35,867 bases of DNA from a virus. Numbering within the stretch: the stretch's first letter is position 1; every line of letters starts with the position of its first letter. Shown here in pieces: positions 18,675 through 35,867 of the stretch. The stretch is taken from positions 1 through 35,867 of the IMG/VR virus record IMGVR_UViG_3300032313_000342; one strand, written 5' to 3'. The notes beneath the pieces are model-generated. The model was not told the origin of the DNA. It saw only the letters and a list, made by a program, of their open reading frames with translations, and did not search any database. Both the position numbers and the translations under genes were made by a program.

Positions 18675-18744
18675 CGAACACCTCAAGCCCCTCCTGAAGT
18701 GAAAATAGGCTTGGGCATCCTTGCCCGTCGTGTCCGTCCGTGGA

Positions 18745-19252: not shown

Positions 19253-20713
19253 TCAGGAGGCAGCGGTCCGGAGAGCCACGAGCGGGCCAGCGCGGTTGGC
19301 GTCGCCGAGATCGTGCGTGAGAGCGTCGAATCGCATCGTGGAGTAGAGCAGCGTCTGATCCAGTTCCGCGTAGCGTTCCGTGGACTGCTTGATGGTCAAG
19401 CCACGACGAGTCGCGTAGAAGCTCGACAGCGACAGGTCGCCGAAGAGGAACTTCACCACGCCGGGGTCAGCCGACACGTTGTTGGAAAGTGTGTGACAGA
19501 AAACCACCGGATATCCCAGCAAACGCATCTCAGCACCGGCCGACACGGTGGCAGGCGTGTTGCCGCCAGCGATTCCGACGTTGTTCACGAGGCCGAGACG
19601 CTGCACGCTGGCGGCGAAAACGGCAGGATTCACGAACCACTTGGCCTGTGCCCTCGCGTAGAGCGGGAGTCGGCCAGCGACGGCGATGAGCGATTCGAGC
19701 TTCAGGGTCGAAGCACCGGTCTCGCCGCTACCGGCAGTGATCAGGCCAGCACCGTGAGTGCCGTCGGCGATCTTCACCGCAGCACCGACGATACCACCGT
19801 GTTCGCCGCTGCCCGTCCCGACGAACGCACAGACGTCGACGAGTTCCGCGATGGCACGAGCCACCTCACCCGTCAAATAATCAGCCAAATTCAGCACGGA
19901 CGAGTCTTCCAAAATCTCCGAAGAGATGCGGCTCGCAACCGCAGCCTTTTTGGCTACAAGCTGCACCCGGTCCCACGCGGCGTCGGATTCGCTGATGCTG
20001 GAATTTTCTCCGACGAAGTAGGCCTTCAGACCGCCGACGCGACGAGGAACGATGAGCGTGTCGCTCTTCATGCTGAGGTTCCGGGCATTCGCTGGGAACG
20101 CTCCGAATTCCTCAACTAAGACGATCACCTCATTAAGCACCTCCTCATTTACAAAAATTCCGCCCTGAGCGTTGATGCCTTCATTGAGGGCACGCGACTC
20201 GGTCACGCCGTTGTCCTTGCACCACCGCTGGGCTTCGTTGTCCTTCAGGAGGGTCGCACGGAAGAACTGACCGGCACGGTAGGCACGCTCTTCGGCATTC
20301 GGACCCTTGAAATTCTTGAGTCGGCCTGCGCCCGGAAGGGCAATGGGGGAAATCTTCACGGGGCTCTCCTTGGAGTTGCGGGTTTCGATCTTGGCTGGGG
20401 TCGACTTGTCGAGGACCGCCCGGAGTTCAAGCTCCTTGGCAGCGACCGACTCGTAGAAGGTGATCTGATCGCGGAGCTTCTCGGCACGCTCGCACAGGCA
20501 GCGAAGCTTCTTCTGCTTCTCGCCTTCGACTTCCTGAGTGTCCTCGACCTCGTCCGATTCCTTGTCGGCAGCGGCGTGATCCATGCCGTTCTGCTCGACC
20601 ATTTCGTCGCCGTGATCGGCGGTCTCGGTGTCGGTCTCCTGAACCGCGCCCATCTCTGCGAGGACGGCGGCGAGTTCGTCGAGGAGCTTCTTGACTTTGG
20701 CCGAGGCTTCCAT
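19253..20713 (-). CDS. major capsid protein, HK97 fold, with N-terminal scaffold domain
   Basis: A 486-residue capsid precursor. Residues 1-100 are charged and helical with a long acidic stretch, the delta or scaffolding domain expected to be removed by the prohead protease. The mature part probably starts between residues 120 and 165. HK97-fold landmarks include GINAQGGIFVNEEVLNEVI, ARNLSMKSDTLIVPR, a KKAAVASRISSEILEDSS strand-helix, the E-loop/P-domain region with AFVGTGSGEHGGIVG, and a final LGYPVVFCHTL...FGDLSLSSFY...LLYSTMRFDA. I chose the ATG at 20713, with AAGGA nine bases upstream, over a GTG at 20752 lacking such a site. It follows a terminator, so it probably heads its own transcript. 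Confidence 0.93.
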   Translation of the reverse strand: MEASAKVKKLLDELAAVLAEMGAVQETDTETADHGDEMVEQNGMDHAAADKESDEVEDTQEVEGEKQKKLRCLCERAEKLRDQITFYESVAAKELELRAVLDKSTPAKIETRNSKESPVKISPIALPGAGRLKNFKGPNAEERAYRAGQFFRATLLKDNEAQRWCKDNGVTESRALNEGINAQGGIFVNEEVLNEVIVLVEEFGAFPANARNLSMKSDTLIVPRRVGGLKAYFVGENSSISESDAAWDRVQLVAKKAAVASRISSEILEDSSVLNLADYLTGEVARAIAELVDVCAFVGTGSGEHGGIVGAAVKIADGTHGAGLITAGSGETGASTLKLESLIAVAGRLPLYARAQAKWFVNPAVFAASVQRLGLVNNVGIAGGNTPATVSAGAEMRLLGYPVVFCHTLSNNVSADPGVVKFLFGDLSLSSFYATRRGLTIKQSTERYAELDQTLLYSTMRFDALTHDLGDANRAGPLVALRTAAS

Positions 20714-20747
20714 GCTCAGTGTTCCTTGCTTGTGGTTTGACGATGCG

Positions 20748-20764
20748 GCCACGCGATGCGTGGC
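20748..20764. other. perfect 7-bp inverted repeat in the capsid 5' leader
   Basis: GCCACGC and GCGTGGC flank a three-base loop. It lies between the terminator and the capsid start, 35 bases upstream of the ATG. It could be an operator or a stabilising 5' hairpin of the capsid mRNA. I find no convincing sigma70 promoter in the 100 bases between terminator and capsid gene. Confidence 0.5.
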
Positions 20765-20840: not shown

Positions 20841-21024
20841 ATTTGGGGGCGGTGCGACGCCAGCAAATGGATCGCACGTCGTTGGCAGCAACGATACAGC
20901 GGTCCTGACGACCGCAGACTTGGCAGCGGAGATACCTCACCTGAAGGTCGCCGCTCTGGCGACTGCTTCGAGTGATCATCCGACCGCTGCACCCTGCACA
21001 GCTACACTTATCACCGCTTTGCAT
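20839..21024 (-). CDS. small zinc-ribbon protein
   Basis: A 61-residue protein starting at the ATG at 21024, with AGGAAG about four to six bases upstream and a 14-base overlap with the previous gene. Cysteines are arranged as C-x-C-x-x-C near residues 6-11 and C-x-x-C-x(4)-C near 33-41, separated by TRSSRQSGDLQVRYLRC, the pattern of small phage zinc-ribbon proteins where the second pair follows a YLRC strand. Likely binds nucleic acid or acts as a structural knuckle; the Mu Com type of translational regulator is one precedent, but no specific homology is claimed. It is the last gene before the terminator. Confidence 0.6.
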   Translation of the reverse strand: MQSGDKCSCAGCSGRMITRSSRQSGDLQVRYLRCQVCGRQDRCIVAANDVRSICWRRTAPK

Positions 21025-21895
21025 TTGGCTTCCTATAAAAAGAGTCCGTGAAATGCGTATCGAACACGAGGTCCGCAGTCCCCAAGACTGCATCGGGAAC
21101 GGACGGCGCGACGCCAGCAACGACGGCGGTCGCAATCACGAGGCCAGCCTTATTGGCTGCTACCTCGAACCCGTTTCGTGCGATCCGTTTTGCGTATGAC
21201 AGCGAGTCTGATTTTACCGCAAACTTCGTCTGCTTGGGGGCATTCGCCGAGGCAATATCCTTCACCGCCTGAAGCTCAGAGTCGGTCAGTTCCTTGCTGG
21301 CTTTCTTCGGGTAGATCGTCACGGTTTTCTTCGTGAAGTCGACGACGTGAGTGACCTTGCCAGACTTGTCCTTGATCCTGAGCGTCAGCCGGGCGCGTCC
21401 GGTTGTGCTTGCCACCGACTTGTTGCTGCCGCTCAGAGACTTGACGATCTTGGCGACCCCTTTGTCCGTCAGGCCGAGGGACGTGATCCGCTCAGACACC
21501 CGCGTCGGTCGCATTTTATTGTCGTAAATTCCTTTGACAGCACCGGCGACAGCACCGTAAGCGGCACTGGTTGCCGCCGCCTGCGGCAGGAATGTCTTGA
21601 AGAATCCGGACGTGGCACCCAACGCCGCCCCGGCGGCTGCACCCTTGGCGGCGTCGGCAGCGAGACCGCCTGCGCACGTGTTGCCCTTCGAGAATTTGCC
21701 GTCCTTCTCTTGGCCGCAGTCTCGGGCTTCGGCGAATGCGAGCAGGCTGGCGTAGCGGGCGTCGAGCGACGGCGAGTCTCCTCGACGCTTTTTCTTGCGA
21801 TTGGCAATAGCGTCAAGCAGATGCTGGGGCTTCTTCCAGTCAGGACTGCCAAGTGAGTCTTGGTCGCCTACGAGGCGTTCTAAGAGTGTCGACAT
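21011..21895 (-). CDS. tagged polyvalent-block protein with CX13C motif
   Basis: A 294-residue protein with no recognised enzymatic domain. Residues 45-58 (DARYASLLAFAEAR) form the helix that precedes a tag, then the CX13C tag C60 to C74 (DCGQEKDGKFSKGNTC). Residues 77-125 are Gly/Ala-rich with alternating small residues, a glycine-zipper-like segment that could insert in a membrane. Residues about 128-212 resemble residues 658-745 of the adjacent 1166-residue protein (shared DK-x-G, VDF, YP, LT/S-x-x-E landmarks). Residues 247-278 form a second hydrophobic stretch. Start ATG at 21895 shares bases with the previous stop (TAATG) and has AAGGGGG upstream. Could be a pore-like internal virion protein. 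Confidence 0.65.
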   Translation of the reverse strand: MSTLLERLVGDQDSLGSPDWKKPQHLLDAIANRKKKRRGDSPSLDARYASLLAFAEARDCGQEKDGKFSKGNTCAGGLAADAAKGAAAGAALGATSGFFKTFLPQAAATSAAYGAVAGAVKGIYDNKMRPTRVSERITSLGLTDKGVAKIVKSLSGSNKSVASTTGRARLTLRIKDKSGKVTHVVDFTKKTVTIYPKKASKELTDSELQAVKDIASANAPKQTKFAVKSDSLSYAKRIARNGFEVAANKAGLVIATAVVAGVAPSVPDAVLGTADLVFDTHFTDSFYRKPNAKR

Positions 21896-24800
21896 TACGC
21901 CCCCTTGTAGTCCTCGTCCTCATCGACGTGCAGGACGGTGCCAGTGCTTGTACGAACCACGCCAAGAATCCGCATTCGCGACGGCGGGCGAACAACCTCC
22001 ATCTCGCTGTGCGCGTTGGATGAAAGAATGTGTCCCACTCGTGGTTTTCTTGTGACGAGAAGAAGCTTGCTCGCTCCGAAACTTCGCGAGACGTCGCGAG
22101 ACGTCGTCCAGCTATTGACGTTTTCGTGAACCACATATCCACTGGAGATCATCCTGTCGACCTCAGCCGGGTCGACTCTCAGGCCACGATAGAGTTGCAG
22201 GCAGCACTCGATCGTGTCTCCGGCCACCGCTGACTCAAGCTCTTTTGCCATCTGCTTGACGGCATTCTTTCTGGCCTCCTCTCGCATCGCATTGATGGAC
22301 TCTTCGATGTCGTAGGTGTTATCGTCCATCCACTGCTTTTTGCCAGCCTCTCGAAGGGCAACGACGTCATCCTCGTCCGACGGTGGTGCGTCTACGCCGT
22401 AGAGCAACTTCATTGAGGCCACGTTCTTCTCGTCGTCGCTCATTTCGTCCCACTCCTTCTCGACCTCTTTCTGCTTCTCGGCCAGAAGGTCGGAGGCGTA
22501 ATAGTCATCGATGGTTCCGTAGTCAGCCCCGTGATAGTCAATGCTGCCATCAGCGTTTTCGCCGAGGCTACCGTCATAGCCAGTGAAGTAACCGGCCCCC
22601 GGCCCAACATAAGCGTCGAGAGGACTCCAGTCGTCTTCGATATCACTGTCTGGTTGTAGTTGCTTCGCTAGCTGAAACGTAACTTCGAGGCCACAGTTGC
22701 GTCCGTGGCATTCGATCTCGTCGAGATATTCCGGGGTACTGATCCCAGTCCTGTCGACGACCGTGACCTCGCCGTCTCCGCTTTTCATCTTTGCCTGCGG
22801 AGCTTCGGCATCTCTCTCGGCGAGGAGGTGCAGTGCGGGTGGTGGTTCGTCTGCCTCTGGCTCAGGTGCGGAAGACCCCTTCGACGAACAAGTGTTGGTG
22901 ACGCCGTTGCCCTCGCCGTTAGGACAGAAGCCACGAGACTGAACGAACGCGAGCAGCGACGCGTGCTTTGCGTCGACCGAACGCTCCCACTTCTTCGGCC
23001 TTTGATGCGGCGGGAGCAGCGTCGAGAACGCGTACTTGTCTTCCCACTTCTTGAGCTTGGCAGCGTTCTCCGAGTCCCACCTCTTCATGTCAGCAGCCTT
23101 GCTGAAGACCTTTATCGTAGGGTCTTCCTGACGTCCGCCAAACGCTTTGCCAGCGGCTTCCTTGATCTTCTTGGCCTCAGCCGGGCTCAAGTCTTTAGCG
23201 GGATAGAGCCTCGCTCTTCCGTTCTCAAAGTCGACGTGGAAGAGCTTATTTCCATCCTTGTCGGCGACGGAGATATTCAGGCTAGGCGGGTTGATATCGA
23301 CTCGCGTGCTTTTTGGATCGCCGCCCATCACGTCAACGAGACTCTTCAGTCTCTTCTCTGACGATCCCATCTGGTACAGCTTCCGGGCGGCGTCCGTCTG
23401 CACGCCGTTGTCGTATCTCATACGGCCACGAGGGTCTTCCTTCGGCATATCGACAGAGCCGCCACACTTGTTGCCAGATGCGAACTTGCCGTCGTCTTCG
23501 CGACCGCAGTCGGCGGAGCGGGCCTCTTTGCTGTGCTTCGGGTGGTCTGAATGGAGAAGGTCGTTGTCGGTCGTGTACTTCGCGTTCTCTGGCCTGCCTC
23601 TCCGGGCAAGAGTCAGGAACGCATTCACTCTCGCCATTGCCCATTGGTCGCGAGCCATGCCCGGACGATGGCTAGTCGAGAAAGCACCAGCACCACGGCG
23701 AAATACGGCCTTCAGTGACGGCAGGCGAACGTGAGTCCAGTCTGGCTTACCGGCCTCCCGCATCGCAGCGTTGTGTTCCTCGACCTTTTTCTTCAGCGAC
23801 GAGATCGTGCTTTCGTCTAGCGAGATGTCGCCAGACTTGTTCTTGGCAGAGCCTTCCTTGTTGACGTCGCTGCCTTTGACTTGATCCTTCTTCGGGGCGG
23901 GAGCGTCCCCGCGAGCCTCCGTATTCGGCTCCTCTGGCGATTCTGCATCAAGATCGAACTCGACAAGCAAATCACGCGTCCTCACCTTTTTGGCAATCAC
24001 GCGAGCCACGCGACCCTGCGAGCTAAGCACGCGAGGCTTCACCGGCTTCACCTCGGAGAGAGGGTATCCGTACTTGCCCTCTGGGCCGATGTAGTGGACT
24101 GAGTCTTTGCCAACACGGTGCTTGTCGAAGTCGGCGTCAAACTCTTTGCGAGTCTTGTAGAACTTCGGCTCACCTACCTTCATGACGCCGACGAGCGTAG
24201 CTTTGCCCTTGCCTGTCCGGACGATGCCGACTGTCTTGCCGATGTATGGCTTGAGCGAGTTTGGCCGACGAGTCTCCATCGTCTTTTCACCAGCGAGAAT
24301 CTGTCCGGTGAAGTCCTGATCTGCGTCGTTGATTCCGATGCCCTTGCCGCACGTGTTGGTGACGCCGCCGCCGGAGCCGTTGGGGCAGAACGCCCGCTGC
24401 TCGACAAGCGACTTGAGTAGCGACGGCCGCGACTTAATGTGCTGGTATCCAAGCGGCTCGTCGCCGTCGTCCTTAGCTGCCCGGCTGCTCTTGTTCCGCT
24501 TCTTCAACTCGCTGCGAATGATCTCCGGGCCGACCTTCGAGGCGTAGGCGTTCTGAGGCGCGTAGTTCTTCGTCTTCTCGTAGACGGCGTTCTGGCCGAA
24601 CGTCTCTGCGAACAGAGCGGGCCACGCCTCTTCAGGGAGCGTAGACGCGTGAGTCAACATTCCGTTGTATTCGCCGTTCGTCGAGAACGAGTAGCCGCCT
24701 CGCACGTGCGCGACCATGTCGTGGACGACCCGGAACAAGTCGTTCGCGATCATCGGCTCGCCGTCGGCAGTCTTGAACTTCGTCTCGCGAAGCATCGGGT

Positions 24801-25395
24801 GGTTGGGCGTGGCATCCCCGATTCCGAACCCCTTGTCGGTCATGAAGAAGGAGAACTCGCCAGTCTTGGCGACCTCTTGGCGCATCTTGTCCGAGTTGGG
24901 CTTCGTGCTGCCCGGCGGGTCGCCGTATGGCTCGCCCTCTCCTCGCCACGCTCTGGCCTTCAGCCCGGCGGCGGTGAGTGCCTCGTACTGCCTGCCGATC
25001 TCATCGACGAGCGATCCGTAGGACGCTTCCGCCTCGGGCGTGAGAGCGACACCTGAGTGGCTCGTCTGCTCGTTGGCGATGTCGTCCATCTGCTTAGGGG
25101 CAGGAGTCTCAGCCAAGCCCTTCGAGCGATCCCAGACTTGCTCCGGGGCAGGGGCCACCGAATCGACGGCGTCCCTGAGATTCTGAGAGCCTTCTGGGAA
25201 TGACTTGGCGGTCTGGCCGGGGCCGCAGTTGTTGGTGACTCCGTTGCCTTCGCCGTTGGGACAGAAGGCACGGGCCTCAGCCTTGTCGCTGAACATCTCA
25301 GCCCACTCGGCAGACACAGGGAATCCACGAATGGCTTCGTTGATCTTCCTCGCGGTCTGCACGCCGCCGTCCGGACGCCTGACGAAATATGTCAC
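21895..25395 (-). CDS. multidomain tagged protein with ASCH-like domain and C-terminal ADP-ribosyltransferase
   Basis: A 1166-residue protein with four tags (C45-C57, C337-C349, C630-C644, C824-C836). Domains: residues 120-300, an unnamed phage domain with FRVVHDMVAH at 221-230 and FAETFGQN at 262-269; 355-460, an ASCH/PUA-like domain (ILAGEKTMETRR then GIVRTGKGKATLVGVMKVGE); 530-620, an unnamed domain with RRGAGAFSTSHRPG and WAMARVNAFL; 658-745, shared with the next protein; 1050-1166, an R-S-E ADP-ribosyltransferase with YRG (R1070), SWTTS (1095-1099) and EME (1131-1133). GTG at 25395 has GGAGG eight bases upstream and overlaps the previous stop; a GTG at 25437 is less likely. Probably modifies a host target if delivered; that is inference. 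Confidence 0.8.
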   Translation of the reverse strand: MTYFVRRPDGGVQTARKINEAIRGFPVSAEWAEMFSDKAEARAFCPNGEGNGVTNNCGPGQTAKSFPEGSQNLRDAVDSVAPAPEQVWDRSKGLAETPAPKQMDDIANEQTSHSGVALTPEAEASYGSLVDEIGRQYEALTAAGLKARAWRGEGEPYGDPPGSTKPNSDKMRQEVAKTGEFSFFMTDKGFGIGDATPNHPMLRETKFKTADGEPMIANDLFRVVHDMVAHVRGGYSFSTNGEYNGMLTHASTLPEEAWPALFAETFGQNAVYEKTKNYAPQNAYASKVGPEIIRSELKKRNKSSRAAKDDGDEPLGYQHIKSRPSLLKSLVEQRAFCPNGSGGGVTNTCGKGIGINDADQDFTGQILAGEKTMETRRPNSLKPYIGKTVGIVRTGKGKATLVGVMKVGEPKFYKTRKEFDADFDKHRVGKDSVHYIGPEGKYGYPLSEVKPVKPRVLSSQGRVARVIAKKVRTRDLLVEFDLDAESPEEPNTEARGDAPAPKKDQVKGSDVNKEGSAKNKSGDISLDESTISSLKKKVEEHNAAMREAGKPDWTHVRLPSLKAVFRRGAGAFSTSHRPGMARDQWAMARVNAFLTLARRGRPENAKYTTDNDLLHSDHPKHSKEARSADCGREDDGKFASGNKCGGSVDMPKEDPRGRMRYDNGVQTDAARKLYQMGSSEKRLKSLVDVMGGDPKSTRVDINPPSLNISVADKDGNKLFHVDFENGRARLYPAKDLSPAEAKKIKEAAGKAFGGRQEDPTIKVFSKAADMKRWDSENAAKLKKWEDKYAFSTLLPPHQRPKKWERSVDAKHASLLAFVQSRGFCPNGEGNGVTNTCSSKGSSAPEPEADEPPPALHLLAERDAEAPQAKMKSGDGEVTVVDRTGISTPEYLDEIECHGRNCGLEVTFQLAKQLQPDSDIEDDWSPLDAYVGPGAGYFTGYDGSLGENADGSIDYHGADYGTIDDYYASDLLAEKQKEVEKEWDEMSDDEKNVASMKLLYGVDAPPSDEDDVVALREAGKKQWMDDNTYDIEESINAMREEARKNAVKQMAKELESAVAGDTIECCLQLYRGLRVDPAEVDRMISSGYVVHENVNSWTTSRDVSRSFGASKLLLVTRKPRVGHILSSNAHSEMEVVRPPSRMRILGVVRTSTGTVLHVDEDEDYKGA

Positions 25396-26288
25396 TTTGC
25401 AATCCTCCGTGGTGGCTTGGCACCGACGGCCTTGCACAGCCTGTCGAGGTCTTTGTCGCTCTTCATCTCCCCCATCGCGACGCCGGTCGTGTACTCTGCG
25501 ACAAACTCGAACACGTCTGCGGTCGCGTACTCGGAGACTGACTTCACTTTCTCCCTAAGAGACTTGTCCGACTTGAGTAGCTCGTTCCCGGCGTCCTCGG
25601 CGGTGGTTAGCGAGTAATCGATGTGAGAAACGCCCGGAAGCTCCCTTTCGCCCGGATGCGGAAACTCAGAGAGAGCGTTTTTGTAATGATCGAGATGAGC
25701 CAGTTCGTGAATGATTGGCGAAGCGCGACTAGTGCTTGAGTTGAACCCCTTCCTGTACTCACTCTCGTCGTACTCGTCGTCGTCGGTAAAAACTGCGAGA
25801 GTGCCTGACTCGGCATCGGCGGCGGCTCCAAGAACTCCTCCTCCGCCTCCGAGTTCTTTCAACTGGTCGATGACCTCCGGAGAGTTCTTAAAAATCTCCT
25901 TGGCAGGCCCAACGCGAATCGGGGTGTTCGCGAGTCGGCCGTCGATCTTGATCGCCTCGGCAAGCGTGTCGAGGTCGGCGAGAATTCGCTGCCTCTGCGT
26001 CTTGTCGGCAGACTTGAGAGCTTTATCGATGTCGGTGAAGTTCATCTTCCGGAAGCCAAGCTCTTGCAGAACCTTGCTCGACTTCTCGCCAGAGGCGAAC
26101 CTCTTCGACACCTCTCCTGACGCAGCAAACTTCGGCCCGTCAGGCTTACTCGTGGAGGCTTTCACGCTGACTCCGCTACTGCCAGAGCCTCCGCCGCAAC
26201 TGTTGTCGATGCCTCCGCCGACGCCCGTCGAGCAAAAGGCACGGGCATGCGCAAACGCAACCAGCGACGCGTATCGTGCCGCAATCAT
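25392..26288 (-). CDS. tagged HExxH metallopeptidase-like protein
   Basis: A 298-residue protein. It starts with the tag helix and tag itself (MIAARYASLVAFAHAR, then C19-C31). Residues 190-200 hold IIHELAHLDHY (HELAH at 194-198), a zincin active site. About 65 residues later VFEFVAEY supplies a candidate third zinc ligand (E261 or E265), giving a gluzincin-like HExxH...E arrangement, as in phage-encoded relatives of the lethal-factor/ImmA-type peptidases. Residues 60-160 are helical without a recognised fold. ATG at 26288 overlaps the protease stop as ATGA and has AAGGA about nine bases upstream. The substrate is unknown: host proteins, virion proteins or the tagged neighbours are all possible. 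Confidence 0.75.
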   Translation of the reverse strand: MIAARYASLVAFAHARAFCSTGVGGGIDNSCGGGSGSSGVSVKASTSKPDGPKFAASGEVSKRFASGEKSSKVLQELGFRKMNFTDIDKALKSADKTQRQRILADLDTLAEAIKIDGRLANTPIRVGPAKEIFKNSPEVIDQLKELGGGGGVLGAAADAESGTLAVFTDDDEYDESEYRKGFNSSTSRASPIIHELAHLDHYKNALSEFPHPGERELPGVSHIDYSLTTAEDAGNELLKSDKSLREKVKSVSEYATADVFEFVAEYTTGVAMGEMKSDKDLDRLCKAVGAKPPRRIAK

Positions 26289-28711
26289 GCACGGCGATCC
26301 TTGAGGAACTTGAGAGTGTCGGCCACGACCTGATCGGCACGCGATCCCTTGCGACGCTTGATCTCGTCGGCGACCTTCTTCAGTGCGTCGGAAGTCTTGC
26401 CGCCCTCGAACGGGTACTTCTCAGTCTTGCTGCCGTCCGGGTGCTGACCTTGGACGTGGCCGTCGGTGTCTCCGACTTGCTTGACCGTCCACGGGAAGCT
26501 ATCGCCCTTGCTCCATGTCTGGACGCCGCCGCCGTCATCCGACTTGCCTCCGTCTTTGCCAGCGGCGAGCGTCTGATCCTTACGAGCCTTGTCGATGAAG
26601 TCCTGAGCTTCCTTGTCCTTGCCCTTACTCCACTCCATGTAGCCGCCTTGGGCTTTGCTCGCGGGCGGTCTCGCATCAACGACCAACCCCGTCGCCTTGC
26701 CCTTGGCGGAGCCAATCGACGGAGGTCTCGCGTCGACGACCAAGCCTGTCGCCTTGCCCTTGGCGGAGCCAATCGACGGAGGTCTCGCATCGACGACCAA
26801 CCCCGTCGCCTTGCCCTTGGCGGAGCCAATCGACGGAGGTCTCGCGTCGATAACTATGCCTTTGCGAGCCCCCCCGCCGACGTCTGTTGGCTTGCTCGTA
26901 TTGCCACCGCCGCACGAGTTGTCCACTCCACCGCCGGAGCCAGTGGGGCAGAAGCCACGGCTCTCGTAGAACTTCATCAGTTCTTCGTAGGAGCGGCGAG
27001 ACTTGGACTTCGGGATGTCCTTGGTGAGCGTGACTTCAGTAGCGTCGTTGCTCAGCGAGTATGAGTAGCCAGCGTCTTGAAAGGCACCGACATTCTGGCC
27101 GTCCGTGGCACCGTCTACGTTGACGATCACCATGTCAACGCCCATCTGCTTGGCAGCTTTAGTGACAGAAGCGGCGAGCCTCCCGGCACTCTCGGTTCCT
27201 TTTCCGCCGATCGCACTGCCAACGCCCTTCAGTACCATGTACTTCGGAACGCCGGTCTCTTTCTCGCCGGGGTGTACCTCGACCGTAACGCCGCCGCCCG
27301 TCATCACGAGCGAGCCGTCGCTGCCTGCCGATACAACCATCGGCTTGTCAAGAATCTTCGCGACCTTGTCTGCTTTTGCGAGAGACGTGCCGGTAGCCCT
27401 GTAAGCGTCTTCGAGAGGCTTCTGAGACTGTGTGCCGAACAGGCCAGCGACGGCACCTGTCACGGCACCGATCGCGGCACCGGCACCAATGCCAGCAGCA
27501 CCACCGATCGTGCCAACAGCAGCACCAATCACGGCACCAACCTTGCCGCCCTCACGCCACGCCGAGTCTTCCTTGTTCGACGCGCCTGACGCGCCGCCGC
27601 ACGAGTTGTCGATCCCGCCGCCCGGCCCAGTGGCACAGAAGCCACGTCGCTCGTCGAGGAACGCACGAGTCTTCTCGATCTCACTGGAGACGTTCGAGCG
27701 AACCTCGACGACCTTCTTCTTTTCAGAAGAGAAGACCTCGTAGCTACGCTTCGCGATTGCAACAGTGGCATCGTCATACGCGGGGTACGTTACTGGCGAC
27801 ACGTCCAGTAATGACTTGATGCGGGTCACGGTCCTGATTGACTGACCGTCCTCGTTCGACCACCGCTCGCCGCCCTCTGCGCAGACAAAACTGAAGCTTG
27901 ACCCACGCAAATCACCTCTGGCGATCATTTCGGCGATGTCTTTGCGAGACTCTGGCAGCAGGCACTCGTACCGCAGGCCGATCTTGTCGACCGTCATCTT
28001 CATCGTCGTTGGAAAACGACCGAGGAGGTGGTTGGGGTCGTGATTGAAGAGGCAGCGAGTGTTGAGCGGCTTGCCCTTCTCGTCCTTGCCAGCCTTCACG
28101 ATGTCGAAAGCAGAAGGAGCCAGCCTCTCGATGAAATCCCCAAGCAGCAACGAGTCGGTACCGAACTTTGCCGCATAGCCGACGATGTAAGTTCGCTTGA
28201 CGCCAGTCGACGGGTCAGCCCGATGCTCGACCGTGAGCGAGTTATCGTCTGGCTTATCGAACGAACCGAAGTACCGACGCTCAACGCCCTGCATTTCTGC
28301 ACTCCTTTGCGACACAGCCTCCTCGTCGAGGATAGCGGTCTCCATATCCAGACTATAAGTGCGTTCGTCGGCGGCATTCATCTGACGAACGACCTTGTTT
28401 GCCCACGACTCGCCGCTGCGACCGCCCCACAGGAGGTCCGCAATTTTACCATTTGACGGAAAACCTTTTTCGCCAGCGCGGAAACCCTCCGCCTTACTGT
28501 CAGAAGCATGGCGATCGAAGAACGCTTTCATGCGTCGCAGCGTGGAAGGAGACAATTCAGCACCGTTCGACAGGTCGCGTGCCCTAGCGATGCCGATCGC
28601 CGTGCCTCCACGACCGTGTTCACGCCTCATTGCGAGGCCGCGAGCCGCTTCACGCTTCACACCGGCCGGTGGAAAGAACGAAATGTGCGAATACTTCTCA
28701 GGAGTTGCCAT
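26285..28711 (-). CDS. HK97-type prohead protease fused to tagged C-terminal modules
   Basis: An 808-residue protein; simple prohead proteases are about 200. Residues 5-115 form an accessory domain common in phage head genes (AARGLAMRREHGRGG, ARARDLSNGAELSP, LLWGGRSGESWANK). Residues 160-320 are the serine protease: YIVGYAAKFG, ERLAPSAF, LFNHD (H224), LRGSSFSF (Ser about 272), and SPVTYPAYDDA. Tag C359-C371 follows, then a glycine-zipper stretch (390-426), a GNAT-like region (440-565), tag C588-C600, a 19-residue tandem repeat (619-690) and a charged C-terminal domain. ATG at 28711 overlaps the upstream gene by 14 bases; a longer frame from 28915 is noise. It should process capsid and possibly tagged proteins. 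Confidence 0.88.
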   Translation of the reverse strand: MATPEKYSHISFFPPAGVKREAARGLAMRREHGRGGTAIGIARARDLSNGAELSPSTLRRMKAFFDRHASDSKAEGFRAGEKGFPSNGKIADLLWGGRSGESWANKVVRQMNAADERTYSLDMETAILDEEAVSQRSAEMQGVERRYFGSFDKPDDNSLTVEHRADPSTGVKRTYIVGYAAKFGTDSLLLGDFIERLAPSAFDIVKAGKDEKGKPLNTRCLFNHDPNHLLGRFPTTMKMTVDKIGLRYECLLPESRKDIAEMIARGDLRGSSFSFVCAEGGERWSNEDGQSIRTVTRIKSLLDVSPVTYPAYDDATVAIAKRSYEVFSSEKKKVVEVRSNVSSEIEKTRAFLDERRGFCATGPGGGIDNSCGGASGASNKEDSAWREGGKVGAVIGAAVGTIGGAAGIGAGAAIGAVTGAVAGLFGTQSQKPLEDAYRATGTSLAKADKVAKILDKPMVVSAGSDGSLVMTGGGVTVEVHPGEKETGVPKYMVLKGVGSAIGGKGTESAGRLAASVTKAAKQMGVDMVIVNVDGATDGQNVGAFQDAGYSYSLSNDATEVTLTKDIPKSKSRRSYEELMKFYESRGFCPTGSGGGVDNSCGGGNTSKPTDVGGGARKGIVIDARPPSIGSAKGKATGLVVDARPPSIGSAKGKATGLVVDARPPSIGSAKGKATGLVVDARPPASKAQGGYMEWSKGKDKEAQDFIDKARKDQTLAAGKDGGKSDDGGGVQTWSKGDSFPWTVKQVGDTDGHVQGQHPDGSKTEKYPFEGGKTSDALKKVADEIKRRKGSRADQVVADTLKFLKDRRA
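26664..26861 (-). repeat. 57-bp tandem repeat inside the protease gene
   Basis: Three nearly identical 57-base units (26691-26747, 26748-26804, 26805-26861) and a partial unit at 26664-26690. Each encodes LVVDARPPSIGSAKGKATG. The near-identity at DNA level indicates recent expansion, and copy number may vary between relatives. There are no spacers, so this is not a CRISPR array. Confidence 0.95.
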
Positions 28712-31700
28712 AGTCGTCGAGAATTCCTTCCTCAATGATGTCTTCCCACCGCTTCCCTGCGGTGAAACTGTCGAAAATCTGTCCCTGAACGCCGTCGAGG
28801 GCGATAGAGACGTCGATGTCACGTCCGTTTTCCTTCCACCACTCCTGTCCCTCGCTCGAAACGTGCAGATCGAGCAGCGTTTGGCAGTGCGAGAGCGACT
28901 CTGGGAGCATTTCAACGAGGTCTGACGGGATTTCAGCGTCGAAACCCATCACATGGAGGCCGTCGAGGCCTGCTTTCGGCATCTCGACCCTCGTTAGGCC
29001 GACTGCACGCAGATCGTCGACGGTGTTCTTCGCGAATTCGAGGGCGTCGGCAGAGTCTTCTGCGTTTCGGCGGAGCAAAGACACGGCTAGTTCGACGAAA
29101 ACATCGTCGTCCATCTCAGAGAGCATGACGTCGAACAGTGCTTGCTCGATCCCGCCGGGCTGATCAGACAAGTAGCGAAGTTCGCCGTCGCCTTCTTGCT
29201 CGATGTACGCGCGAACCTCTCTCCTTTTGATCTGACCGCTCGCGATTTGTTTCATCACGTCGGAATACAGCGAAGGAACACCCACCTCTGTCGATGTTCT
29301 CGTGCCGAGAGTCCCCCACGCATCTTGTTCGTCCTGCCACAGGACGTCCTGCATATAGGCGATCGGCATCTTAGCTCTTGCTGACGCCTCGCGCATGACT
29401 TTGATCATATTTCTACGCATCATGCCATTCTGTGGAGCTTCCAGAGCCTTCGTTTCGTTGTTGAGAATCGCAACCGCGAGCCTGTCAATCTTGTATCGCG
29501 ACTCCGTCCCTGTGCCGTACTTCGGGTTTGGATGACCATCCTTTGCGTACTGCTTCACTCGACGCTCCGCCCAGTCAATTACGGTAGACGGAACGACTCC
29601 CGTCTTCTTCATGCCAGAGACGATCGTGCGAAACTGCCTGCCGTCAATGCCAAGCTCAGATAATTCTTTTCGCTTAATGTCCTTAGTCGACTCCATGAGC
29701 GAAGTGGCGTGCTTTTTGGCTGTTTCTGGGCTGCGGTCTTTGATCAACTCGCCGGAGAGCCTGCCCCAAGTCCTTGAAAACCAAAGGTCAGCAGTCAACG
29801 GGTCGTGGTCGCCCATATTGTTTGCGAAGAACGGTCCGACCTTTGGGCCAAAGATGGAAAAAAGAGGCACGACCTCATCTGCGTAATAGTCAGCAGTAAA
29901 CTTTTCCCCCTCACTGCCGGGTATCTTCGACTCGAAATACTTCTGGAAGTCCCTGACAGGCATAGGAGGCTGGCTGAAAAGCTTGCGAGTCTCTTCCATC
30001 CCAATTGTGTCAATGATTCCTTGGAGTCGAGCAAACTTCTTCGCTGTTTCTTTGCCACCAAGGCCCGGCATGCTCAGGCCGTTCCCAAGAGTTGCGGTGC
30101 TTGGGTTAGGATCAGTGAAGTATCGAGTTATGACTTGGTCCGCGAGCAGCATATTGTTCTTTGGAGTTGCCATCGGAGACGTCAACGCCTGCGCGGCTCG
30201 GAAAAGAAACTCAGCGTGAGGAGAGATTCCCTCACTCGGCTCGCACTCGCCATTCGGACCCTCTTCACCGATGCAGCGACCCGAAGCAGTCCTACCGCCA
30301 CGCATCAGCGGCTGAATCTTCGCGTACTCATCAAGTTGCTTTTGCCTGTCTTCCGGGCTGTAGAAGTTGGGTGCCACGCCGCGAGCGGTTGCGGACTGAA
30401 TCTGAGAAACGATGCCTGTAACCATGTACTCGAAGTCATCCCCTTCGAGCGGCTTGCCTTCCGTTGCCGTGTCGATAACACGACCACGATGCTCTGACTG
30501 CTTTTCGGCCAGATACCTTCCAACAGTTACGGGATCGATCTCTGGTTGCCCCGCAAAGCCCGGAGATATGACAGCACCGGGGATCGTTGTGCTTTCAATC
30601 TTTCCGTCAGCACTTCTTGTCACGACGTTGCTCGACACCGCCTCGGCGAACAGGTCTGGGTGCGGCTCGCCAGCCCTCCAGACAAGCGGCTCAGCCGGTG
30701 CCGAGTCTCCGCCGCCGCCTTTCTTCTGCTTAGTCGCTGATGGAGATCGCTCGAAGCCGCCGACACTCCCACCAAACGCATCTGTCGGACCGCCATCGTC
30801 GTTACCGCAAGTGTTCAGGATGCCGCCGCCTTCGCCGGTCGGACAGAAGCCTCTCTCCTCAACGAACGCATCGAAGAACGACCGAGTCTGGTTCCGCTCT
30901 CGCAGGGCGGGCAGTCGATCCTTCACCTCGGACCACTTCTTGTAGCCAAGGCTGCTCTTGTCAGTCAGGTCGAGCTTCAACTCGATGTCGTCGCCGTTGT
31001 CGTCCCACCACCGCTTGCCCTCGCGAGTCTTGATCAACTCTTGGATAGTCATGTCGCGGTTCTGGGACGCGAGGCTCTTAACCACGAGGTGGTGCGGAAT
31101 GCTCGTCGAGCCGGGCGGCGGGATCGCGATGCCCTTAGACTTCAGGACGATCTCAGGAGGGACACGCTTCGCCAAGTCTCTGGGCAGATCGGCGTCAAAA
31201 CCGAACTGCGGCCAGAGCCTGTAGCCCTTGTACTGGTTGTTGGCGTCACCGACGGCAAACGTGGTCACAGCGACAAACCCGTTCTCCTCTGCCGATTCGA
31301 TCGATTCAGCAACCTTCTCCGAGATGATCGAAATGACCTTCTGTTGGTCAGCACCAGAAGAGATGGAGCCACCAGACGGGCCAAACGCCTCGAAGCCAAG
31401 CACCTTGCCTTCTGGCGTATTCGCCATCGACACTTCGGTGAAGACCTTGCCGCCACCATCCGGGTCTTCCTTGTCGATAGGCCAGAGGGCACTGACCTTC
31501 GTGAAACCACTGGGGTCCGCGTAGACGTCGACCTTCGCGCCGCGAACATTGGCACCACTAATCTTCACGACGTCGTCAACGCCACCCAGACCAAGAACAG
31601 ATGCCGCCTTATCGAGACTGTCTTGAGACTCAACAGTTACGCTGGCTGGCTTCCCTGCACCAACGCTGGAACCGGCAACACTGCCGCCGCCTCCATCCCT

Positions 31701-33830
31701 GTCTGGTGCCATCTTGCCACCGGAGCCGCATGAGTTGTCGACGCCGTTTCCTTCGCCGGTCGGGCAGAAGCCACGCTCCTCGGCCTCGCCGCGAATAGCT
31801 CGCCACTCAACGTCAATGACGTCGATGATGTCACGGTCAGAGACCTTGCCGCTGATTCTCTTGAATCGCTGCCAGCCAGAGTCTTCGTTGTCGCCGATGC
31901 GAAGGAACATCGGCATCGCGCCGCCGTTCTCTTCCCACCAACGCTGACCTTCCTTCGTGTCGTAAAGGCTCTGGATCGTCAGGGCACCTTCGCTCTTCTC
32001 CTGCTTCGCCCGGTCGGACAGAATCTCGTCGGGGAGATTACTTCCGTACTTCTCGAAGAAGCCAAGCCTGATCGAGTACGTGGGGGTGATCTTGTTTCGA
32101 GGGATGATGCCGTCGAACCCAAGGCGAGGCCAAATGCGGTAGCCCTTGAACTCATCGTTCGAGTCGCTGCCTGCTGCGAGCATACCCACTTCTTCAACGC
32201 CAACCTTCTCCGCCTCGTTGATGCTCTTCACGACTCCAGAGTAGAGACCGCGAGCAACGGCGATCGGGTTATCCCTCTGTGCTTCAGGGGCGACGCTGAA
32301 CATCACGTAAGAGAGGAGTAGCTCGTCGTCGTCGGTGCGAGAGAGAGTTGCCGCAGTGCCGATGGCATCCTCGACGCCTCCGAATGGCTGCTTCGATACG
32401 ACAGTCACGCTTGACTCTGGATCAGTCGCCCTGTCAGGGTTGTCAATCCAGTTAGTGATCTCCTTGAGAGTGCCGTGAGCGACCACTACGTTCGACTCTG
32501 GCGACAAGTTCCCGCACACCTTGGCCGCTTGGTCAAGGGTGACGCCGACTTCCTTGAGCGATGCAGAGAGAGTCCTGCCATTGAGGATGGCGACGGTGTT
32601 CACCTCGGACAGCGATGGTGCTGGCGGGTCGATCTTGAGCCTCTCGGCGTCATAGACCGAAGGCGTGTCGAGCTTCTTCCATGAGGTTCCTGAGCCGCCG
32701 CCGCCCATCGTCGAAGACGGTGAACGCATGGCACCGTCGATGGCATTACCAAATGCGTCCGACGGAGAGCCTTCGTCTTGGCACTTGTTGCCGGGGCCGA
32801 AGATTCCGCCGGGGCCGCGACCGCAGTCTACGGACGCTTCTCGATGCTCGCGAGAACTTCTGGCTGATCCTTCCACAGGTGAGGCAATGCTTCCGGGCCG
32901 TCGTCGTACCACGCTGGGTCGAGCTTCCTGCCCTTCGACTCGGCCACTCTCTCGAAATACGTTCGCATTGCGCGAAACGTCTCGATGATCGTGGCCTTGC
33001 CCTTCACGTCGAATCGCTGAATTGGTTTGGTCATTGTTTTCGTCCTCCTCGGACTGATGATTATACGCCCTGACAGTGGTTTTTCCATGCGCAGACAAGT
33101 CTTTTGCCCAGTCTTCATCCTGAATCGCAGGAGTATCTGGGTCGTACACTTGTTTCTCTTGCGATTCCTTTCTTGCCTTGGCGAATTTCTTGTCGTAGCC
33201 AGCGGGCTTGCGGTCGTCGCCGCGATCGTAATGAACCCAAGTCTCCTTGACTGTTCCAAGGTTGAACACGGCAAGCTGGCCTGACTTCCTGCCTGATTCG
33301 AGTGCTTCTGCGGCTTTCTCAGGAGGGAATCTCGTGGAGACGTCGATGTAGAAGTCTTCACCCGCCCTCCAGCCGCCGATAAACCTGTCCGCCTGACCGA
33401 CAAGAAGGTCTGCATTATTCGAGACCCACTCAGAAAGCTTCTTCACTCCTCGCGGTGATTCTATATCCGAAGCCTTTATCGTAACGGAGCGAACAGTGTC
33501 GTTCTGAAACTCACTGACCATAATCCCGTCCGGAGGAGATTCGGCGGAGAGTGGATCGAGCGTGAACCCGTCAGGATTGCTGGCAATCTTCTCGACAAGC
33601 TTCTCGATTGAAAGCACTGGCGAGCCGGATGCCCCCCCCGAACCGCCACATGAGTTATCGAGTCCGCCGCCCGGCCCGGTCGCACACCAAGCCCGCTCCT
33701 CCTCGACAGCATCCTCCCAGCGATCCTCTTTATCAGCCGGGAGCTTGACCGCCATCTTGCGTGCGGCGTCTGCCATCTTGTTGATGCGATCGGCGTCCTC
33801 GTCCCACCACTGCGACAGATCGTCGGCCAT
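28698..33830 (-). CDS. giant tagged polyvalent protein with GNAT-like cassettes
   Basis: A 1710-codon frame with tags at C49-C61, C336-C350, C689-C701 and C996-C1008. Segments: 70-220, an unnamed phage domain (GGWRAGEDFYIDVS, GQLAVFNLG); 390-660 and 725-970, two GNAT-like cassettes, each with GYR[IL]WP-x-x-GFD and a trailing WW[ED][ED]NG module; 1050-1600, an unnamed helical domain with LTADLWFSRTWGRLSG near 1346 and a final AYMQDVLWQDEQ; 1615-1690, a truncated cassette (MGFDAEIP, WWKENGRDID). ATG at 33830 has AAAGGA upstream and follows the previous stop as TAATG. The interval 33033-32830 does not look coding in this frame (see the nested gene), so the true protein may be two products or contain a frameshift. 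Confidence 0.7.
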   Translation of the reverse strand: MADDLSQWWDEDADRINKMADAARKMAVKLPADKEDRWEDAVEEERAWCATGPGGGLDNSCGGSGGASGSPVLSIEKLVEKIASNPDGFTLDPLSAESPPDGIMVSEFQNDTVRSVTIKASDIESPRGVKKLSEWVSNNADLLVGQADRFIGGWRAGEDFYIDVSTRFPPEKAAEALESGRKSGQLAVFNLGTVKETWVHYDRGDDRKPAGYDKKFAKARKESQEKQVYDPDTPAIQDEDWAKDLSAHGKTTVRAYNHQSEEDENNDQTNSAIRREGQGHDHRDVSRNANVFRESGRVEGQEARPSVVRRRPGSIASPVEGSARSSREHREASVDCGRGPGGIFGPGNKCQDEGSPSDAFGNAIDGAMRSPSSTMGGGGSGTSWKKLDTPSVYDAERLKIDPPAPSLSEVNTVAILNGRTLSASLKEVGVTLDQAAKVCGNLSPESNVVVAHGTLKEITNWIDNPDRATDPESSVTVVSKQPFGGVEDAIGTAATLSRTDDDELLLSYVMFSVAPEAQRDNPIAVARGLYSGVVKSINEAEKVGVEEVGMLAAGSDSNDEFKGYRIWPRLGFDGIIPRNKITPTYSIRLGFFEKYGSNLPDEILSDRAKQEKSEGALTIQSLYDTKEGQRWWEENGGAMPMFLRIGDNEDSGWQRFKRISGKVSDRDIIDVIDVEWRAIRGEAEERGFCPTGEGNGVDNSCGSGGKMAPDRDGGGGSVAGSSVGAGKPASVTVESQDSLDKAASVLGLGGVDDVVKISGANVRGAKVDVYADPSGFTKVSALWPIDKEDPDGGGKVFTEVSMANTPEGKVLGFEAFGPSGGSISSGADQQKVISIISEKVAESIESAEENGFVAVTTFAVGDANNQYKGYRLWPQFGFDADLPRDLAKRVPPEIVLKSKGIAIPPPGSTSIPHHLVVKSLASQNRDMTIQELIKTREGKRWWDDNGDDIELKLDLTDKSSLGYKKWSEVKDRLPALRERNQTRSFFDAFVEERGFCPTGEGGGILNTCGNDDGGPTDAFGGSVGGFERSPSATKQKKGGGGDSAPAEPLVWRAGEPHPDLFAEAVSSNVVTRSADGKIESTTIPGAVISPGFAGQPEIDPVTVGRYLAEKQSEHRGRVIDTATEGKPLEGDDFEYMVTGIVSQIQSATARGVAPNFYSPEDRQKQLDEYAKIQPLMRGGRTASGRCIGEEGPNGECEPSEGISPHAEFLFRAAQALTSPMATPKNNMLLADQVITRYFTDPNPSTATLGNGLSMPGLGGKETAKKFARLQGIIDTIGMEETRKLFSQPPMPVRDFQKYFESKIPGSEGEKFTADYYADEVVPLFSIFGPKVGPFFANNMGDHDPLTADLWFSRTWGRLSGELIKDRSPETAKKHATSLMESTKDIKRKELSELGIDGRQFRTIVSGMKKTGVVPSTVIDWAERRVKQYAKDGHPNPKYGTGTESRYKIDRLAVAILNNETKALEAPQNGMMRRNMIKVMREASARAKMPIAYMQDVLWQDEQDAWGTLGTRTSTEVGVPSLYSDVMKQIASGQIKRREVRAYIEQEGDGELRYLSDQPGGIEQALFDVMLSEMDDDVFVELAVSLLRRNAEDSADALEFAKNTVDDLRAVGLTRVEMPKAGLDGLHVMGFDAEIPSDLVEMLPESLSHCQTLLDLHVSSEGQEWWKENGRDIDVSIALDGVQGQIFDSFTAGKRWEDIIEEGILDDYGNS
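32828..33034 (-). CDS. 68-residue protein nested in another frame of the giant gene
   Basis: The ATG at 33034 has AGGAGG nine bases upstream. The product starts MTKPIQRFDVKGKATI and includes TFRAMRTYFERVAESKGRK and DPAWYDDGPEALPHLW. By hand count, third-position G+C is 50 of 68 codons in this frame but only 29 of 69 in the frame of the surrounding giant gene, whose translation here is Arg/Ser-rich. So this frame is the coding one in this interval. Either it is a true separate gene embedded between two parts of the giant gene, or the giant protein is read through it with compensating +1 and -1 shifts, or the sequence contains indels. The stop TAG at 32830 is immediately followed by the next tag (DCGRGPG) in the other frame. 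No domain is recognised. Confidence 0.65.
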   Translation of the reverse strand: MTKPIQRFDVKGKATIIETFRAMRTYFERVAESKGRKLDPAWYDDGPEALPHLWKDQPEVLASIEKRP

Positions 33831-35867
33831 TACTTGTCCTTTCGTTTCCAGATGCGAGTGCCTATCAACGCACCTGACTTCACACGTTCTGGTGCAGATG
33901 ACTCTTTGACCTTTGACTGAGCGAACTCGGCCAGACTGGCGGAGTCGAGTTCCAGTGCTTCCTTGGGCACGCCATCAATCTGCTTAGGCTTTCCCGTGTT
34001 GTCGAGGAAGACGAACGACGCGGACGGGTTGTCCTTGTTGGCCTGATGGAACGCGTGGTGGTTCTTCGCGCCGATCGCGTAGCTATCGGCAAACACCATC
34101 GCGTCTACCATGCGGCCGTCCTTCGGATCGGCTGCTCGCTTCACAACACCGCGATCAGGGTCGGCCCACTGCACCTTCGGGTCGGCGTGAACGAAGACAT
34201 AGTTCACCTTCAGTCCACGGTCCTCGGCCTCTTTCAGAATCCACGGGTTCTCAGTGGCGTTCTGATCACCGGCACTGTCCCACACAGCCGCAGCCTTTGA
34301 CTTCATCGCCAACGCGTCTGGGTTGTTTTTCAGTGCGAACCCCTTGCCAGCACCGCAGCCGCCGACAGTCACGAGAATCTCGTCGCCCTTCGAGAGCGTG
34401 TCGAGGTGCTGAACGAATGCACGCTTCGCGATCGCGTTAGCGGTCTGGTGCAGGGCGACGTTGAGAGTAGCCCGATTCTGTGCGCGAGTGTCTGGGTCTG
34501 GGTGCGACCACGCGTCGGTAAGACACTTGGCGTCGTCCGTGCCAAACGTCGGCGGATCACCCATGCTCTTGACGAGTTCAAGGAACTGGGAAGATACGCC
34601 GTCTGGGTCTGACTGGAAGTGCTTCATGAACGCGTCCTCGACAGACCGCTCGTGAGGAGTGAGATTCGGAACTCGACTCACGTTTGGCGGAGGCGGAACC
34701 TCCATCGCTGGCACGCCCACGCGAGCAGCATCAGTCACGCCGTCTTTGTTCTTGTCAGACGTGACGTCAATGGTCGGGCACGGGGCAGGGCAGGAGCCAC
34801 CGCCTCCGGATGTGGTCTTATCGGCGTCCGGGCCTGCCTTGCTGCCGTCTTGTGAACTGCAAGTGTTCTCGATGCCGCCGCCTTCGCCGGTCGGGCAGAA
34901 GCCACGCGACTCAAGCCCCCACGAGCCGGTGGCGAACATCTCGTCGGCAGATCGGTAGTGCGTCTTGGCGTTGCGAGTGCCGTACTCGGGGATGCGAGTG
35001 AAGACAGTGTTGCCGACGCTCAAAGAGTCTGTGCCTCCGATGACTTCCTCACCGGTTCGCTTGTTGTAAAAGTACGCAGCCTTCTTTGGGTCGAACCCAA
35101 CAGGGGTCCACGAGTCAATGTCTTTTGGAATCTCTCGGCTTGGGTCAAAGGCACCCTTCACTGTCGCGAGCGGTGTCTTCGTTGTCTCTCCTGTGGCTAC
35201 CCGAATCGCTTCGGTTTCTTTTGATGCGAACACGACACTTCCAGACAGGCGAGCCATCGTCTCGTATCCGATCGGGCTTCCAAACCCCTTGCCGCCCTTA
35301 CTCTCGTGAACAGTTACCGCATAAACGCTCTTGCCCATCTGCTTGGTTGATTCGTTGAAGGCCGGTATGTCGATCCGAATGGCGACCGGAGTCCCTTCAG
35401 GAAGCTCTCTCGCCTTTCCAATCTTCGACACCTTGTCCTTGTTCGATATGAGGATCGCCTTCGTGAGGTCGTCTTCTGATGGAGGGACCGCAAAGACAGA
35501 ATTGTTTGTTCCGACAGAAGGACGAAACTCAACGTACTCCCTCATGGACTCATTTGCTTGCTCGACTGAAACTGACTGAGGCATTGAGTCGGCTACAGGG
35601 AACTTGCTCTTGCTTGCAGCACCGCCGCCCGAATCCTTATCCGGGCCAGCCATCACCTTCGATCCGCACGAGTTGTCGATGCCGCCGCCGGGGCCGGTGG
35701 AGCAGAACGCTCGGTACTCAGGAAACAGGACGTCGAACAGAGAGCGGCCTTCGTTTCGCTTCTTGAGTCGCTTCGAGAGTTCAGCCATCTTCTTGTACTG
35801 CTTATACCCGTCGCTCTTCTTGTCTTTCAGGTCGAGCTTCAGGGCAATCGACTCGCCGTTTTCGTTC
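33830..35867 (-). CDS. tagged protein with zeta-toxin-like kinase domain; 5' end beyond window
   Basis: The frame is open to the right edge, so the true start lies outside; the ATG at 35788 is internal, because codons before it read NGESIALKLDLKDKKSDGY, matching the trailing part of GNAT cassettes in the next gene. Numbering from 35788: tag C29-C41; residues 75-285, an unnamed polyvalent-protein domain with PVAIRIDIPAFN, IGYETMARLSG and SWTPVGFDPKKAAYFY; tag C298-C310; residues 440-610, a zeta-like P-loop kinase, ILVTVGGCGAGKGFALK at 471-487, then VWDSAGDQN and VNYVFVHADP. Zeta toxins phosphorylate UDP-N-acetylglucosamine or related nucleotide sugars. The P-loop ends GKG, not GKS/T, so activity is uncertain. 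A likely internal virion effector. Confidence 0.75.
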   Translation of the reverse strand, partial: NENGESIALKLDLKDKKSDGYKQYKKMAELSKRLKKRNEGRSLFDVLFPEYRAFCSTGPGGGIDNSCGSKVMAGPDKDSGGGAASKSKFPVADSMPQSVSVEQANESMREYVEFRPSVGTNNSVFAVPPSEDDLTKAILISNKDKVSKIGKARELPEGTPVAIRIDIPAFNESTKQMGKSVYAVTVHESKGGKGFGSPIGYETMARLSGSVVFASKETEAIRVATGETTKTPLATVKGAFDPSREIPKDIDSWTPVGFDPKKAAYFYNKRTGEEVIGGTDSLSVGNTVFTRIPEYGTRNAKTHYRSADEMFATGSWGLESRGFCPTGEGGGIENTCSSQDGSKAGPDADKTTSGGGGSCPAPCPTIDVTSDKNKDGVTDAARVGVPAMEVPPPPNVSRVPNLTPHERSVEDAFMKHFQSDPDGVSSQFLELVKSMGDPPTFGTDDAKCLTDAWSHPDPDTRAQNRATLNVALHQTANAIAKRAFVQHLDTLSKGDEILVTVGGCGAGKGFALKNNPDALAMKSKAAAVWDSAGDQNATENPWILKEAEDRGLKVNYVFVHADPKVQWADPDRGVVKRAADPKDGRMVDAMVFADSYAIGAKNHHAFHQANKDNPSASFVFLDNTGKPKQIDGVPKEALELDSASLAEFAQSKVKESSAPERVKSGALIGTRIWKRKDK

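Follow-up and report, generated by a model that had tools for sequence, protein, structure and literature searches.

A short peptide with two cysteines around a run of glycines, repeated 14 times in a single viral sequence, is in our reading probably a processing joint between the cargo modules of head-associated polyproteins, a case that we build from sequence comparison. The sequence is IMG/VR virus record IMGVR_UViG_3300032313_000342, and the window that we analyzed spans that entire source record of 35,867 nucleotides. A first-pass annotation of this DNA had drawn attention to the peptide, which we call the tag, and all 14 of its copies could be located: 11 of a CX11C form and three of a CX13C form, all on the minus strand and all in six consecutive open reading frames (ORFs). 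Where the tags lie, the consensus that they keep, the site that they share with the capsid protein, the shuffling of modules around them, the addition of tagged cargo at chain ends, and the propeptides that some tagged chains share are all seen in the sequences.

If this is true, it shows how a few polyproteins let phages put together, package, and set free whole sets of injected proteins, and it gives a concrete answer to how fused domains are released in some polyvalent proteins. It also supplies a sequence rule by which the injected cargo of uncultivated phages (possibly phages of Planctomycetota) can be recognized and split and, for those who would like to put proteins of their own choosing into phage heads, a natural modular system for loading them.

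A Candidate Cleavage Site

What does the tag look like when many copies are lined up? In a set of 165 unique CX11C tags, the consensus reads E-x-R-[AG]-[FY]-C-[PA]-[TN]-G-x-G-[GN]-G-[IV]-x-N-[STD]-C-[GS], with E in 126, R in 157, A or G in 156, and F or Y in 159 of the flanks. The search pattern fixed the Cys, Gly, and Asn of the tag, so the invariance of these is imposed, and only the remaining positions and the flanks are informative. The CX13C form is C-G-[RQ]-x3-G-x-F-x2-[GK]-N-x-C, and a 14-residue intermediate, CGTGxGGFxxGNTC, bridges the two. (Counts of unique tags vary with duplicate removal, 187 or 198 for CX11C and 136, 139, or 143 for CX13C; the full set of 249 ORFs and 555 tags is not one of independent examples, loci found by tag and loci found by capsid partly overlapping, and the broadened patterns used for it gave some overlapping matches, the shortest inner module having 0 residues.) A zinc knuckle or ribbon, which requires four Cys/His ligands, was rejected for a tag with two Cys and no conserved His, and an intein or 2A-like element was set aside by size and motif.

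The flank is where the tag becomes more than a curiosity of glycine. The element [ED]xR[AG][FY] stands ahead of 140 of 187 unique CX11C tags, as against 26 occurrences in 203,001 positions outside tags, and [ED]x[RK] lies just upstream in 94 of 136 unique CX13C-type tags. The first-pass annotation had put a SLLAF-type helix ahead of most tags, but that helix precedes only three of the 14 in the window; the upstream element that is conserved is E-x-R-[AG]-[FY].

The same kind of site recurs in the capsid protein and in the protease of this head. In the capsid, [ED]xR↓A (the arrow marks the putative cut) is present in 80 of 83 loci at the alignment column of HK97 K103↓S104, and the mature HK97 chain in structure 1ohg starts at residue 104. 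In the prohead protease, the linker before the S78 fold carries at least two [ED]xR within 60 residues in 52 of 58 unique sequences (three of the 58, with no site at all, are truncated), and E144/R146 and E162/R164 are invariant across 17 aligned proteases, six of which have no tag. Several meanings had been offered for the tag, and a cleavage site for virion processing fared best among them, by virtue of a candidate ExR↓A common to tags, capsid, and protease linker.

Does the site belong to the joint or to whatever domain happens to come before it? An [ED]xR no more than 8 residues from the Cys was counted in 256 of 341 unique joint ends vs. 26 of 139 true chain ends (Fisher test), and module families 0 and 7, which occur both inside chains and at their ends, have no [ED]xR in the chain ends shown. 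Being common at joint ends and rare at true chain ends, the site belongs to the joint more than to the preceding domain.

One might suppose that the tag is just a flexible linker, closed through its cysteines as a disulfide or metal clasp, in proteins that stay whole. Two Cys around a Gly-rich stretch, often with Gly and Ser following, look the part, as do the structure models: in two of them (alignments of 17–18 sequences each; mean predicted local distance difference test score, or pLDDT, 55.3 for the protease chain and 52.0 for a 1180-residue polyprotein), six of six tags lie in coil, the ten-residue blocks that hold them average 24–45, and each of the two tags in the protease chain comes directly after a helix. 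However, a closed linker explains neither the ExR nor the match to the capsid maturation site nor the rarity of the site at true chain ends, and where a tag comes after a short N-terminal peptide, as some do, there are no two domains to join. We regard this explanation as unlikely.

Much can be said against a processing joint too, and it is best said in one place. The E is missing from two of the 11 window tags of the CX11C form (HAR and QSR); the tag of a relative, L147, is preceded by VAKR and that of the L006-type S78 phage by FLRGF, again with no E; and among unique CX13C-type tags, an [EDQ]x[RK] no more than 8 residues away is missing from 29 of 139. The ExR↓A of the capsid could be inherited and its coincidence with the tag motif due to chance, and because the capsid and linker sites have no loop, cutting there would not need a tag. 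Ten of 56 capsid relatives have no upstream tag, and this head therefore does not require one. The models being of low confidence, coil at the tags is weak evidence and gives the idea of a disordered joint weak support. Finally, we know of no cleavage product, no virion proteome, and no cultured host, and processing is what we infer from the sequences. All this moderates our preference for a processing joint; it does not, in our judgment, overturn it.

Cargo, Chain Ends, and Shuffling

Six untagged S78 proteases finish in [FWY]L..[HR]G..R, and at that place the tagged ones read FL.ERR↓GFC and go on with the tag. An untagged portal, that of L150, stops within ∼16 residues of the tag position in its relative L147, whose portal continues with the tag, a Gly-rich linker, and then a metallopeptidase-like domain (HExxH by eye). 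In these alignments, the tag marks cargo added at native chain ends.

The cargo itself is varied. Centroid clustering, adopted since single linkage chained modules into one cluster of 479, gave 149 module clusters; one of these, family 0, follows 23 families and precedes 14 (itself counted). Pfam comparison of 84 modules, sampled from 156 listed, found ART-PolyVal (best E 2e-24), GNAT, zeta toxin, glycine zipper, DUF5824, and L5_gp82, each seen in one to five members. With the tags masked, 36.1% of the ends of homology between polyproteins fall within 5 residues of a tag zone vs. 7.2% at random, in tests of high-scoring segment pair ends that draw on many related pairs. An ORF may have up to seven tags, and some chains consist of one cargo and one tag.

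That modules shuffle at the tags is one part of the domain-shuffling proposal in the first-pass annotation, and it stood; the other part, that the tags are junctions at the level of DNA, did not fare as well. Suppose that the tag were a recombination joint for swapping modules, its peptide having no role of its own. Shuffling at the tags would be expected, and identical codons between window tags do exceed expectation (305 of 488 vs. 218.2). Yet the excess is mild (1.24-fold within loci and nearly the same, 1.12-fold, to far lineages), the amino acids are kept while the codons vary, and CX11C and CX13C tags occupy like joints in relatives (e.g., L067 vs. other proteases), which shared DNA would not easily allow. 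Given the conserved amino acids, varying codons, and mild excess, a junction at the DNA level can be no more than a side effect, and as the whole explanation of the tag we give it hardly any credence.

The tags had also been described as domain boundaries, which does not hold for several that come after a short N-terminal peptide. These peptides deserve attention. Among the tagged ORFs whose first part is short and holds no portal or protease (79, counting repeats), 27 unique ones share an N-terminal peptide like M..RYASLxAFxxxR, which fronts eight module families and measures 18–59 residues from the M to the tag (26 measured). By analogy, these helical peptides may act like the capsid-targeting propeptides of phage T4, and they fit targeting better than the tag does, for which that role had been suggested. 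Could the tag nonetheless be the signal, read by portal or scaffold, with any cut incidental? The tagged proteins are head-associated or encoded among head genes, and the chains of one cargo and one tag would be consistent with this. Then again, cargo fused to a portal or protease should need no extra signal and yet is tagged, and as many as seven signals in one ORF would be redundant; a targeting tag is, to us, very unlikely.

Where the Tags Are Found

Written as a degenerate DNA pattern, the CX11C tag matched 67 IMG/VR stretches, and the same pattern written backwards matched one; in 28 records searched whole, the matches lay all on one strand in each, and the backward control gave 0. With controls this close to zero, tags of the window type exceed chance. 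In three records of 94–97 kb, they are confined to one cluster of ∼8–11 kb. That tags cluster between portal and capsid, as a pattern search was meant to find out, was borne out wherever marker genes were detected: the tags span the loci from portal to capsid.

Loci were also gathered by capsid, independently of the tag: 83 of them, 3 from metagenome-assembled genomes (MAGs) and the best 80 of 487 viral ones. Tags lie upstream of the capsid gene in 46 of the 56 that have >3 kb upstream, and elsewhere in the available stretch in 0 of the 83. Two of the MAG loci are labeled Planctomycetota and one Gammaproteobacteria, a weak pointer to the host; none of the three has a tag.

Tags widespread in unrelated cellular proteins had been named as a finding that would refute the first-pass annotation. 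This condition, checked in part, did not refute it: in genome_contigs (by its description, 84,980 species with one genome each), one tag pattern, which fits 111 of the 165 unique viral CX11C tags, had 0 exact matches. A cellular origin was dropped, given that result with one pattern and the tagless MAG loci. Among 50,697 phage records, consulted for cultured relatives, a 29-residue tag query found nothing at E 10 (Basic Local Alignment Search Tool, with the low-complexity filter on and a Gly-rich query), and relatives of the capsid turned up there in 24 records, all below 60% identity, with a best E of 7e-9.

Heads Without a Detected S78 Protease

Tags also occur in other company. Loci L049, L057, and L022 have matches to Phage_portal_2, Phage_Mu_F, or Phage_capsid_4, for L016 there was no match to any head family, and the stretches of all four are without a detected S78 gene. 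A Glu stands three residues before the first Cys in eight of nine tags of L016, L057, L049, and L174 (a longer stretch of the L022 record); the corresponding position across the whole tag set is Arg (157 of 165). The cut residue could have switched along with the protease, although the numbers are small. Pfam gave nothing useful on the class of protease in these lineages, and for their head maturation protease there were weak matches only, to PHROG 207 (E 0.29–0.8).

The Tagged Genes of the Window

The features of the window are collected in Table 1. That the tagged ORFs lie upstream of the major capsid gene is confirmed by the gene that follows the block, a Phage_capsid match (E 1.8e-32), and the prohead protease that had been recognized among the tagged proteins is indeed there, with a Peptidase_S78 domain (PF04586, E 2.1e-32) in the protein at 28711-26285. 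In a fold search, the model of that chain resembled gp21, the prohead protease of T4 (5jbl, E 1.2e-4), as well as GNAT (E 1.1e-3); the 1180-residue model had no fold match at E <= 0.001.

Table 1. Tagged ORFs, tags, and capsid gene of the window. CX11C coordinates start at the residue preceding the first Cys; arrows mark putative cuts.
Feature	Position	Strand	Basis
C-terminal part of portal-fused polyprotein, two tags, 5' end outside window	33833..35866	-	Identity to L027 ORF
CX11C tag (EYR↓AFC...)	35666..35707	-	Pattern match
CX11C tag (ESR↓GFC...)	34859..34900	-	Pattern match
Cargo polyprotein, 1710 residues, short N-terminal peptide and four tags	28698..33830	-	ORF, tags, module families
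CX11C tag (EER↓AWC...), following N-terminal peptide	33648..33689	-	Pattern match
CX13C tag	32781..32825	-	Pattern match
CX11C tag (EER↓GFC...)	31728..31769	-	Pattern match
CX11C tag (EER↓GFC...)	30807..30848	-	Pattern match
Prohead protease chain: N-domain, linker (two ExR sites), S78 domain, tag, GNAT-like module, tag, C-module	26285..28711	-	Pfam, alignment, model, fold matches
CX11C tag (ERR↓GFC...), near the point at which untagged S78 proteases stop	27599..27640	-	Pattern match, alignment
CX11C tag (ESR↓GFC...)	26912..26953	-	Pattern match, alignment
298-residue protein: 16-residue N-terminal peptide, tag, cargo with HExxH (by eye)	25392..26288	-	ORF, peptide comparison
CX11C tag (HAR↓AFC..., without E)	26196..26237	-	Pattern match
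Polyprotein, 1180 residues, four tags, DUF5824 match	21895..25437	-	Pfam, model
CX11C tag (EAR↓AFC...)	25225..25266	-	Pattern match
CX11C tag (EQR↓AFC...)	24349..24390	-	Pattern match
CX13C tag (EARSADCG...)	23464..23508	-	Pattern match
CX11C tag (QSR↓GFC..., Q replacing E)	22888..22929	-	Pattern match
294-residue protein: N-terminal peptide, tag, Ala/Gly-rich stretch	21011..21895	-	ORF, peptide comparison
CX13C tag (EARDCG...)	21674..21718	-	Pattern match
Major capsid protein; E185-S186-R187↓A188 in HK97 maturation-cut column	19253..20752	-	Pfam, alignments

L027 has a 1410-residue ORF in which residues 42-475 match the portal, and with residues 743-1410 of that ORF the first tagged ORF shares 81% identity; the first tagged ORF is therefore the rear part of a portal-fused polyprotein whose front lies beyond the window edge. 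Its last cargo module (33833-34807, minus strand), kinase-like with GxGAGKG by eye, shares 316 of 325 residues with L027, and the module preceding it is clearly more diverged; the near-identity reflects either an exchange in the recent past or strong constraint. The last module of the protease chain holds a tandem repeat with units like VVDARPPSIGSAKGKATGL (26654-26857, minus strand), which none of 10 aligned tagged relatives has. Ala/Gly-rich stretches come shortly past tags at 27434-27538 and in the 294-residue ORF (21011-21895) and could be membrane-inserting cargo; in relatives, some of the sampled modules match the glycine-zipper models of Pfam. Downstream of the capsid, the ORF at 17916-18833 (minus strand) looks glycosyltransferase-like by eye.

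How the Joint Might Work

What might happen in such a head? Cargo polyproteins would be built into the prohead, with the tags as standard joints between modules (GNAT, ART, kinase-like, metallopeptidase-like, glycine-zipper, and other domains). The cargo would be attached to the C terminus of the portal, attached to the C terminus of the S78 protease, or strung together in separate ORFs that start with a short peptide resembling the T4 capsid-targeting sequences. At maturation, the S78 protease would cut behind E-x-R, directly ahead of [AG][FY]C, and the same enzyme would cut the delta domain of the capsid and its own linker. Each freed module would then bear the Cys-bounded Gly loop near its new N terminus and would be ejected together with the DNA. 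Cleavage by S78, packaging, and ejection are what we infer here from sequence features.

Why have a loop at all? Because the capsid and the protease linker have the site and no loop, the loop presumably serves the freed cargo and not the cut; our guess is an N-terminal cap closed by a disulfide or a metal, or else a signal for ejection or retention. A bolder version, which we hold only tentatively and would not bet on, is that site and loop make up an exchangeable "cut here and cap" code, able to plug any module into a portal, a protease, or a targeted ORF, with the loop as an ejection signal, and that this code has spread to further lineages of heads, in which the residue ahead of the loop may suit another protease. 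The Glu-before-loop tags of the lineages without a detected S78 gene recall the xxE sites of T4 and the giant phages; against such a spread, four of the eight read EVR-C and hence contain ExR as well.

Comparison with Known Systems

Three known systems come close, and the kind nearest to our chains is that of phage polyvalent and ejection proteins. Polyvalent proteins (PMC5512222) are giant, multidomain proteins encoded beside portal and head genes, at times as portal fusions, with ART, GNAT, and metallopeptidase domains, and they have been compared there to polyproteins freed by embedded peptidases. Our chains are like them in having multiple distinct domains (one chain has S78 and GNAT fold matches), in drawing on the ART-PolyVal and GNAT repertoire, and in gene context, with portal and head genes alongside. 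They differ in the joint: the passages of PMC5512222 covered here describe no recurrent joint tag or prohead-protease site, and the words "linker" and "cysteine" occur in them 0 times. The releasing enzyme differs as well, an embedded peptidase in that account and, as we propose, a co-encoded S78 protease here.

In T4, capsid-targeting sequences are propeptides of 10–20 residues on internal proteins that the prohead protease cuts (PMC9026906, PMC5694885). The likeness, on the same sources, which also cover the giant phages, is a short N-terminal peptide common to different head proteins with a cleavage motif at its end; the contrast is that those sites end in Glu (ALE, AVE, LIE) and ours in ExR, that the peptide is a different one, and that here site and Cys loop are repeated many times within one chain. 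HK97 gp5, matured by the gp4 protease, has its cut in the same alignment column as our predicted capsid cut, although it reads FNK↓S where ours reads ExR↓A, and HK97 has portal and protease genes of normal size.

Both polyvalent proteins and processing by prohead proteases were known already. Since a literature search found the tag strings in no paper and turned up no standard tag at every joint, it is in the joint that we place the novelty: what seems new is one standard tag at every joint of these chains.

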